Assembly (NCBI RefSeq): GCF_000019165.1
Contig: NC_010337.2
Span: forward strand, 289,501-353,500
Direction: 5' to 3'
Length of the DNA: 64,000 nucleotides
Source: Heliomicrobium modesticaldum Ice1
GTDB taxonomy: Bacteria; Bacillota; Desulfitobacteriia; Heliobacteriales; Heliobacteriaceae
Positions 57,458 through 59,423 of this stretch are shown here, piece by piece. The translations under genes were made by a program, and so were the position numbers. The notes under the pieces are model-generated. The model worked only from the letters and a program-made list of their open reading frames with translations. It was not told the DNA's origin and made no database searches. Every line of letters starts with the position of its first letter. Position 1 is the first letter of the stretch.

Positions 57458-57484
57458 AAAAAGAAAAACCCTCCGCAGAGGGCC
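57458..57484 (-). terminator. Terminator of the DUF1858 gene
   Basis: GGCCCTC pairs with GAGGGTT around TGCG, followed by TTTCTTTTTG on the minus strand. Confidence 0.75.
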
Positions 57485-57498
57485 TTCTTTACCAGCCG

Positions 57499-57732
57499 TT
57501 ATTCGCAGCTGCAGCCGCAGCCGCAGGCATCGTCATCCTTGCCGACGACTTTGTTCAGTTCTTCGATCAGTTTATCCACATCGATGCCGTGGGCCCTGGC
57601 GCCTTGCCCGATGTTTTCAAAGCGAGCCGCCGAGCAGCCCAGGCAACTCATGCCGAAGCTCATGAAAACAGGCACCGTATTGGGAAACTTGGCCACACAC
57701 TCACCAATACCCATCGTTTCAGTGATCTTCAT
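57499..57732 (-). CDS. DUF1858 / hybrid cluster protein-associated redox disulfide domain protein
   Basis: This 77-residue protein has the full domain: MKITETMGIGECVAKFPN, then FMSFGMSCLGCSAARFEN with the CxxC redox disulfide near 31-34, then AHGIDVDKLIEELNKVV. It ends in a cluster of extra Cys (DACGCGCSCE). It is thought to act with Fe-S or hybrid cluster proteins or in sulfane/disulfide chemistry. AAGGAGG lies nine bases before ATG 57732. A CsoR/CstR-like operator covers its promoter. The metal-binding or persulfide-binding tail fits such control. Confidence 0.88.
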   Translation of the reverse strand: MKITETMGIGECVAKFPNTVPVFMSFGMSCLGCSAARFENIGQGARAHGIDVDKLIEELNKVVGKDDDACGCGCSCE

Positions 57733-57761
57733 CTGGCAACACCTCCTTACGGGAGCTGTCC

Positions 57762-57806
57762 GTACCCCCTGAGGGGTATTATACATCAGATTCCACCTTC
57801 ATGCAA
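57762..57806 (-). promoter_or_regulatory. Promoter with CsoR/CstR-like operator for the DUF1858 gene
   Basis: On the minus strand TTGCAT (57801-57806) and TATAAT (57778-57783) are 17 bases apart. The -10 box is followed directly by the palindrome ATACCCCTCAGGGGGTAC (57762-57779), which matches the TACCCC-GGGGTA operators of CsoR, RcnR and CstR regulators. Which regulator binds is not known from the window. Confidence 0.65.
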
Positions 57807-57913
57807 AGCCCCGAGGCAAAAATCCCTTTTTTATCGCCTCTTATCGCGCCTCAGAAGAAGTATTCCCACCTTTCTCCCCAGGTCTGCCCCCTCGGAGACA
57901 AGGAAATTTCCGG

Positions 57914-58264
57914 TTATATTGTCGTCGTCTGAATCGCCTCGAGCGACTGCTCCTCTGTCTCGTCGATGGCAAAGACCTGATCCAACTTGGTCATCACAAA
58001 AATCTCATAGATCATAGGAACCAGGCAGGCAATCCGCAAGCGCCCCCCGTGCTTGAGCGTCGTCTTCAAAATCGAAACAAGAAAGCCAAGACCGGTCGAG
58101 TCGATAAAGTCGACGCCGCTGAAGACAAAGACGAACTTCCGTTTCCCCTGTTCGATGCGCTGAACAACATGAGCCCGAAAGGCGGCTGCCCCCGAAGCGT
58201 CGAAACAGCCGGACAAGGTCAATATCTCCACATCTCCCACGTTCCGGGAATCGTAGCGCAGCAT
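57914..58264 (-). CDS. STAS-domain anti-sigma factor antagonist-like protein
   Basis: This 116-residue single STAS domain has the phosphorylatable Ser in VDFIDSTGLGFLVSIL near residue 56. Such proteins bind and release anti-sigma kinases of the SpoIIAB/RsbW type in response to phosphorylation. AAAGGAG lies nine bases before ATG. No kinase or sigma gene is adjacent, so the partner is unknown. It follows the STAS-cheC pair but is separated from it by a strong terminator. Confidence 0.9.
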   Translation of the reverse strand: MLRYDSRNVGDVEILTLSGCFDASGAAAFRAHVVQRIEQGKRKFVFVFSGVDFIDSTGLGFLVSILKTTLKHGGRLRIACLVPMIYEIFVMTKLDQVFAIDETEEQSLEAIQTTTI

Positions 58265-58337
58265 CCCATCCCTCTCCTTTCCAGCAACGAGCGCTTCGCC
58301 GCAACGATGTCAGTGAAGGCAAAAACCACAGAATGTG

Positions 58338-58365
58338 AAAAAAAGCCCCACCGTTCAGGCGGGGC
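58338..58365 (-). terminator. Terminator of the STAS-cheC unit
   Basis: GCCCCGCC pairs with GGTGGGGC around a five-base loop, followed by seven T residues on the minus strand. Confidence 0.85.
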
Positions 58366-58382
58366 ATTCATCGCTTCGTCGG

Positions 58383-58994
58383 TTAGGCTAAGCCCAGGGA
58401 ACCGAGGATCAGCTCAAGGGAACCCTCTTCCGGGATCAAGAATAAGAACCCGGCGATCTGCTGCCCTTCGCCGATAAACTCGGTGGCCAGCAACAGCGCA
58501 TGGTCGCCCACCTCGGCGATGGACGTGAGCACCACGCTGATGATGGCCGCCGCCATGTCGATGGCCAAGGCGGGCACGGACTGCTCGAAGGTGAGCCGCG
58601 TAAACATGGACAGCGCGCTGAGGTAGGTGCCGGCCAGGATGTTCCCCACCTCTTTGAGGGCCGATGCCTCCATCTCGCCGATCGCCTGGGTGGTACCAGC
58701 AGGAAAACCCATCAACATATCCACAAGCGCCTTCGCAGAATCGATGGGGAGCACAAAGAGCAGGTTAGCCGGTGCCTTGCCTTCCACCCGCAGGTAGACG
58801 CCTGCCACCAAGGTTTCCGGTCCGCCCATGTGATCGGCCACGTGATCAAAAGGCACAACCCCCAGCGAGGGGACTTTCATGTCGATCGCTTTTTGGACCA
58901 TCTGGGAGAGGGCTGTCGCCGAGTTGCCGGCGCCCACGTTCCCTACTTCCCGCAGGGCATCCATTTGCAAAGGGGTCAAACTCAAAAAATCCAC
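58383..58994 (-). CDS. cheC: CheY-P phosphatase CheC
   Basis: This 203-residue protein has two CheC active-site repeats with the E-xxx-N pattern (LREVGNVGAGNSATALS near 14-30 and LKEVGNILAGTYLSALS near 113-129) and the FDHV insertion region. It removes phosphate from CheY-P and, in Bacillus, works with CheD. The GTG start has AAAGGAG nine bases upstream, reading into the STAS gene stop (six-base gap). No cheD is adjacent. The pairing with a STAS gene is unusual. Confidence 0.93.
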   Translation of the reverse strand: MDFLSLTPLQMDALREVGNVGAGNSATALSQMVQKAIDMKVPSLGVVPFDHVADHMGGPETLVAGVYLRVEGKAPANLLFVLPIDSAKALVDMLMGFPAGTTQAIGEMEASALKEVGNILAGTYLSALSMFTRLTFEQSVPALAIDMAAAIISVVLTSIAEVGDHALLLATEFIGEGQQIAGFLFLIPEEGSLELILGSLGLA

Positions 58995-59000
58995 GGCTCC

Positions 59001-59351
59001 TCACTCCTTTGCCGCGCCCACCAACGCGAGGGCATCCTCTTCAGAGTCGACGATGGCGATCACCTTGTTGAGTCGGACAATTTCGAAGACCTGCCGGATG
59101 ACGTCTCTGAGCCCGAAAACAGCCAGTTGCAGGTTGTCCGACTGCAGCTGTTTATAGTAGGCCACCAAAGCCCCCAAACCGGAACTGCTGATAAAAACCA
59201 CATCGGTAAAATTCAACACGATGGCTTCACATTGTTCCGTAACCGCTTCCGTCAAAGCCTTTTTAAACCGTTCGAGGCCGAGACCATCGATCTCGCCTTT
59301 CAGATCAACAATATTGCACGAGCCGAGCTTGCGCGTCCTGTACTCTAACAC
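59001..59351 (-). CDS. STAS-domain protein coupled to cheC
   Basis: This ~116-residue STAS domain has the Ser motif VVFISSSGLGALVAYY near residue 52. I use GTG 59351, which has AAAAGGGG nine bases upstream. The ATG three codons before it abuts that Shine-Dalgarno. The cheC gene follows six bases later, so the two proteins are made together. The STAS protein may link a phosphorylation-controlled partner-switch to chemotaxis, but this is inferred. Confidence 0.85.
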   Translation of the reverse strand: MLEYRTRKLGSCNIVDLKGEIDGLGLERFKKALTEAVTEQCEAIVLNFTDVVFISSSGLGALVAYYKQLQSDNLQLAVFGLRDVIRQVFEIVRLNKVIAIVDSEEDALALVGAAKE

Positions 59352-59423
59352 CCGCGCCATCCCCTTTTCTCAAAAAACAAAATCTATTTATCTTTTTTCA
59401 TTCTGCTTTTTTTTAGCATACCA

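Follow-up and report, generated by a model that had tools for sequence, protein, structure and literature searches.

What regulates the gene of a small DUF1858 protein (a domain of unknown function) whose promoter carries a palindrome resembling the operators of CsoR-type repressors, and to which signal would it respond? The question is raised by a locus in the window, a stretch of 64,000 nucleotides from Heliomicrobium modesticaldum Ice1, where a sequence-only reading had proposed a CsoR/CstR-like operator over the promoter of such a gene. In the open-licence literature no link was found between DUF1858 and CsoR, Leptospira proteomics turning up instead, or between heliobacteria and CsoR, and nothing on regulation was found for Heliobacterium modesticaldum and copper.

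The palindrome overlaps the promoter of the DUF1858 gene

The features of the locus are collected in Table 1. The palindrome had been described as lying directly at the -10 box, and this is exact: on the minus strand TACCCCTCAGGGGGTA overlaps the promoter by sharing the end of TATAAT, and the longer palindrome ATACCCCTCAGGGGGTAC (57762-57779, minus strand) has the last two letters of the box as its first two. The layout of the minus strand is TTGCAT-17-TATAATACCCCTCAGGGGGTAC...AAGGAGGTG...ATG, with 30 bp between the palindrome and the gene; the promoter scanner called 57778-57807, given as TTTGCA-18-TATAAT. The gene is probably transcribed as a monocistron, since a terminator-like stem-loop follows it.

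Table 1. Features of the DUF1858 locus, in positions of the window
Feature	Position	Strand	Basis
Candidate CsoR-type operator TACCCCTCAGGGGGTA, TAC-X10-GTA with C4/G5 tracts	57763..57778	-	Exact match; csoR-copA geometry
-10 box TATAAT	57778..57783	-	Last base common to operator core
-35 box TTGCAT	57801..57806	-	17-nt spacer
RBS AGGAGGTG of the DUF1858 gene	57740..57747	-	Sequence; similar sites in orthologues
DUF1858/TIGR03980 (hybrid cluster protein-associated redox disulfide domain) gene, 77 aa	57499..57732	-	Profile matches; start backed by homologues
CLGC codons	57634..57645	-	CxxC invariant in alignment
Cys-rich tail CGCGCSC codons	57505..57525	-	Four-Cys form common to heliobacteria with csoR-copA; shorter in one more
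Terminator-like stem-loop 3' of the DUF1858 gene	57464..57487	-	Scanner

In Streptomyces lividans the CsoR consensus is described as ATATACCCCTNAGGGGTATAT, TAC-X9-GTA, with TAC/GTA dyads around G-tracts; mutation of the triplets left no detectable CsoR binding, and known CsoR sites are typically X9 (PMC3902906). The TAC/GTA inverted repeat around two G/C tracts that marks type 2 CsoR operators is present in TACCCCTCAGGGGGTA. The spacing is X10, against the typical but not strict X9 of such operators, and the csoR-copA site of the same genome is also X10. Assignment of the site as a putative type 2 CsoR operator is well supported, by the two CsoR-family genes of the genome and by a palindrome of this kind at the csoR-copA promoter. 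The palindrome was also considered as an RNA hairpin or attenuator; this reading was rejected as unlikely because the predicted transcription start would fall inside the palindrome.

The strict site is unique in the genome

The exact pattern TACCCC-N4-GGGGTA (TACCCCNNNNGGGGTA) occurs once in the 3.08-Mb genome, and with up to one mismatch at six places genome-wide, compared with three for the reversed control. The 18-mer with up to three mismatches was found once in the window against 0.02 expected. ATACCC-N4-5-GGGTA gave 12 strand hits in this genome and none for the control; in nine heliobacterial genomes taken together the counts were 70 and 20, respectively. The 12 hits represent seven places, four before genes and three in ORFs (two of these being copies of one ORF). 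There was no clear enrichment for TACCC-N3-7-GGGTA (17 versus 15 for the control), for TACC-N4-5-GGGGGTA (six versus four in this genome) or for TACCC-N6-GGGTA (five versus two here and 20 versus 15 over the nine genomes, forward counts), and X10 sites as a class were barely over control. When the window was simulated with a Markov-1 model, X8-X10 sites arose at 0.40 per Mb; the reversed-pattern controls were relied on instead for the chance level because they were higher in real genomes. The site family is real, with enrichment seen for the N4-5 class. The DUF1858 site, being X10, lies outside this class; its candidacy has three grounds, namely that it is unique, where it lies, and that it resembles the csoR-copA site.

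Matches to TACC-N4-5-GGGGGTA at L180, L181, L185, L194 and L251-L253 were set aside as lying, by eye, in RBS-like or other contexts. A TACCCCC-AGGTA segment adjoining a GTGGAATA motif is conserved in five genomes (L251, L252, L253, L185 and L194) and is RBS-like. A stem-loop of the form GGTACCC...GGGTACC between lon-like and engB-like genes was not counted as a regulatory site; it is conserved (L010, L255 and L256, with gene names by reading) and is probably an RNA hairpin.

The DUF1858 protein carries a CxxC motif and a Cys-rich tail

The encoded protein scores above the cut-offs of both the DUF1858 (72.4 bits, cut-off 32.2) and TIGR03980 (90.5 bits, cut-off 44.95) profiles, and the CxxC domain and Cys-rich tail previously ascribed to it correspond to CLGC and CGCGCSC. 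A longer ORF from 57786 was set aside, as it begins inside the promoter, while homologues and the RBS back the start at 57732. The CLGC motif is unchanged in 29 of 29 aligned sequences, the query included. Selenocysteine forms, CxxU, are described for DUF1858 in PMC9312934, which fits a redox-active CxxC, and that of the 77-aa protein is probably redox-active. The AlphaFold model has four helices and a mean pLDDT of 81.9, with residues 70-75 of the tail at low confidence. The solved DUF1858 structures 2k53 and 2k5e match in sequence with E values of 2.7e-12 and 1.4e-9; the domain is shared, but the matches end at query residues 65 and 62, respectively, ahead of the Cys-rich tail.

A second DUF1858 protein (L017, G000 C1:2152513-2152683) has neither the tail nor an operator, and its neighbours are, by reading, ribosomal protein L28-like and Asp23-like genes. 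Just upstream of the DUF1858 gene in the window (57914-59360) a CheC-like gene lies between two STAS-like genes; the first STAS was assigned by profile search and the others were named by reading.

The genome encodes two CsoR-family regulators

Two CsoR-family (PF02583) genes, here called CsoR-A and CsoR-B, were found where a CsoR/CstR homologue had been anticipated. CsoR-A (C1:1712640-1712879) is the first gene of csoR-copA-copZ, where the next genes encode an HMA-domain P-type ATPase and a stand-alone HMA protein. The site at the csoR-copA promoter, TACCCTACCGGGGGTA, has the spacing TAC-X10-GTA and a G5 tract as at the DUF1858 gene. CsoR-B is followed by a thioredoxin gene. Both regulators keep Cys-His-Cys, and only CsoR-A has a Tyr ahead of the first Cys; the Tyr-Cys, His and Cys positions of CsoR-A are those that we take to matter for copper. 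With Cys-His-Cys and its link to copA and copZ, CsoR-A has the marks of a copper-sensing CsoR. The CstR pattern, two cysteines with the copper His ligand missing, is absent from both regulators of this genome, the His position being kept. Of the operator type first proposed, CsoR/CstR-like, the CsoR half is thus backed by the two CsoR genes and the csoR-copA palindrome, but the CstR half is not, as Cys-His-Cys is kept. Copper is favoured over persulfide as the predicted signal because the X10 spacing and the G-tract of the DUF1858 site fit the CsoR-A operator and not the X9 operators of CsoR-B. Assignment of the site to CsoR-A is likewise favoured, and a sulfur signal at this promoter less so.

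PF02583 is present in all nine genomes of the order. CsoR-A is found in G000, G001, G002, G003 and G004, and in all five the csoR-copA operator is X10. CsoR-B is found in these and in G005-G007, G008 having one divergent copy instead. The operator of CsoR-B itself is intact in five of the eight CsoR-B genomes, always as X9, and degenerate in G000, G003 and G004. Cys-His-Cys is kept in seven of the eight; the thioredoxin-linked CsoR-B of G005 (L059) has Gln at the His ligand, a CstR-like pattern. The divergent CsoR-family gene of G008 (C23, L060/L220) has Cys-His with the final Cys missing. An NrfC-like ferredoxin gene stands back to back with it, and an operator-like site lies between the two.

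Palindrome, tail and CsoR-A occur in the same genomes

In the comparison set of nine heliobacterial genomes (G000-G008) the DUF1858 orthologue is preceded by TACCCCTCAGGGGGTA, with the full TAC/GTA dyad, in G000 and G004, by TCCCCTCAGGGGGTA in G003, of the same genus, and by TGCCCCCAGGGGGCT, where both triplets are missing, in the Heliobacterium genomes G001 and G002. No palindrome precedes the orthologue in G005-G008. The full dyad is thus present in two of the nine genomes, or two of the five with CsoR-A, and the C-tract/G-tract palindrome in all five. The four-Cys tail is found in G000-G004, a shorter CGCC in G008 and no such tail in G005-G007. The same five of nine genomes therefore carry CsoR-A, the C-tract/G-tract palindrome and the four-Cys tail, which may reflect one ancestral event.

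Among DUF1858-type loci of the order, TACCC-N3-7-GGGTA (up to one mismatch, within 250 bp) is found at 3 of 27. A scan of the 200 bp ahead of 79 named DUF1858 loci found neither the same motif nor its reversed control; these loci come from 80 returned, with the fragment L144 left out, and for two of them the upstream sequence was limited to 138 and 186 bp. Five of the named loci are heliobacterial (L065, L066, L067, L072 and L076, from G002, G001, G006, G008 and G005, respectively). At least three Cys are present in the tail at 4 of the 79 (L065, L066, L072 and L125).

Other genes with CsoR-like sites

In each of the five CsoR-A genomes a small 4Fe-4S ferredoxin gene has TACC-NNN-AGGGGGTATG at its -10 box, with X9 spacing and a G5 tract (L145-L149, the promoter being at about position 1480 on the strand of the gene). 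A like site, TACCTACGGGGGGTA, lies near the ferredoxin orthologue of G006, a genome without CsoR-A. In the window's genus a second HMA P-type ATPase is encoded a few kb from the small ferredoxin gene. A CoA-binding/thioredoxin-reductase fusion has an X9 site at its promoter in six of the nine genomes, G000-G005 (L012 in G000, L235 in G001, L238 in G002, L223 in G003, L225 in G004 and L246 in G005). X8/X9 sites also precede genes for a TlpA-like lipoprotein in seven of nine (G000-G004, G006 and G007) and an NrfC-like ferredoxin in five of nine (G000, G004, G005, G006 and G008), and in two of nine an X8 site lies about 120 bp ahead of the start of a DsrE/DsrF-like gene (L222 in G002 and L233 in G001). 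The domains of this wider set are Pfam-backed for one representative each and otherwise assigned by reading, and matches before other genes or inside ORFs are left out of the counts. The X8/X9 gene set suggests a paralogous thiol/sulfur regulon, which would most simply be that of CsoR-B.

Discussion

On balance, it would seem that CsoR-A represses the DUF1858 gene at a type 2 operator and that Cu(I) relieves the repression, with the protein protecting thiols or Fe-S sites or buffering Cu(I). The operator-like site, the promoter, the gene, csoR-copA-copZ with its like site and the protein motifs are read directly from the DNA; repressor binding, copper induction and protein function we infer as follows. 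Apo CsoR-A, sitting on the palindrome, would block transcription of the DUF1858 gene by covering the start site together with the 3' edge of the -10 box. Binding of Cu(I) at the Cys-His-Cys site would release it, and the DUF1858 protein would then be made alongside the copper exporter. Most likely the protein, with its CxxC and CxCxCxC tail, would buffer Cu(I), or reduce or protect copper-damaged thiols and Fe-S sites. Counting against CsoR-A are the presence of the full dyad in only two of its five genomes, the absence of the motif from the 79 named loci and the X10 spacing where X9 is typical.

The regulator at this site might instead be CsoR-B, placing the gene in a thiol or reactive-sulfur regulon with the thioredoxin reductase, TlpA-like, NrfC-like and DsrE genes. 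Such a regulon is consistent with the X8/X9 sites before these genes and csoR-B, and a disulfide-type DUF1858 protein would suit a thiol role. We consider this unlikely, however, as G005-G007, which have CsoR-B without CsoR-A, lack the palindrome before the DUF1858 orthologue, the site is X10 where the operators of CsoR-B are X9, the operator of CsoR-B itself is degenerate in the window's genus, and CsoR-B, with Cys-His-Cys in all but G005, is unlike CstR. It is improbable, to a further degree, that the segment is no operator but a GC-rich start-site sequence, palindromic by chance or as a relic. The looser motif versions show no clear enrichment and three of five relatives have lost some or all of the dyad triplets, but the strict site is unique in the genome and exactly on the -10 box, the C-tract/G-tract palindrome is kept wherever CsoR-A is found, and the TATAATACCC arrangement recurs at the ferredoxin promoter of this genome. 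Least likely of all is that both paralogues bind such sites, giving joint copper and thiol control. The two site classes differ slightly, the ferredoxin site combines X9 with the G5 tract, and G006 has such a site without CsoR-A, all of which would fit; against this, S. aureus CsoR is reported (PMC5480029) to be unresponsive to sulfide stress and separate from its paralogue CstR.

If CsoR-A is the regulator, the copper-type operator and a Cys-rich tail that tracks the copper sensor make copper the first testable condition for one DUF1858 lineage. Tentatively, the CsoR family of heliobacteria may have diverged into two paralogous regulons, with copper stress met by export together with replacing or protecting thiol and Fe-S redox carriers. 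The copper arm would comprise csoR-copA-copZ, the small 4Fe-4S ferredoxin and the DUF1858 protein with its gained, putatively Cu(I)-binding CxCxCxC tail, and the thiol/sulfur arm thioredoxin, the CoA-linked thioredoxin reductase and the TlpA-like, NrfC-like and DsrE proteins. The wider site set suggests that Fe-S-rich strict anaerobes link their thiol and ferredoxin genes to the sensing of copper.

Several known systems resemble parts of this arrangement. The CstR and YrkD persulfide sensors belong to the CsoR family and have thiol- or sulfur-related targets, as the X8/X9 sites here appear to, but in both regulators of this genome the His ligand position is kept and the targets are not sqr/cstAB-type clusters (PMC5480029, PMC9918477). 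The Thermus sulfur-oxidation regulator TTHA1953 is likewise of the CsoR family with scattered sulfur-related targets, although its motif is without G-tracts of at least four (PMC10318464). DUF1858 is also described in Thermus DrpB (PMC6282519) and in the NnrR regulon of Bradyrhizobium, where a DUF1858 gene is similarly controlled by a stress-type transcription regulator, but one of the CRP/FNR type acting in denitrification and not a CsoR (PMC6710368). The closest likeness is to the CsoR copper regulons of Firmicutes and Streptomyces, which share the type 2 TAC/GTA G-tract promoter operator and the copper-type CsoR with copA and copZ; they differ in the X9 spacing, X10 here, and in the target, here a DUF1858 protein. 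A survey of CsoR in gut Firmicutes lists csoR, copA, HMA and DUF2318 proteins as targets, the words ferredoxin and thioredoxin being absent from its accessible text (PMC4938975). A DUF1858 protein as a CsoR target would be a plausible and modest extension of these known copper regulons.
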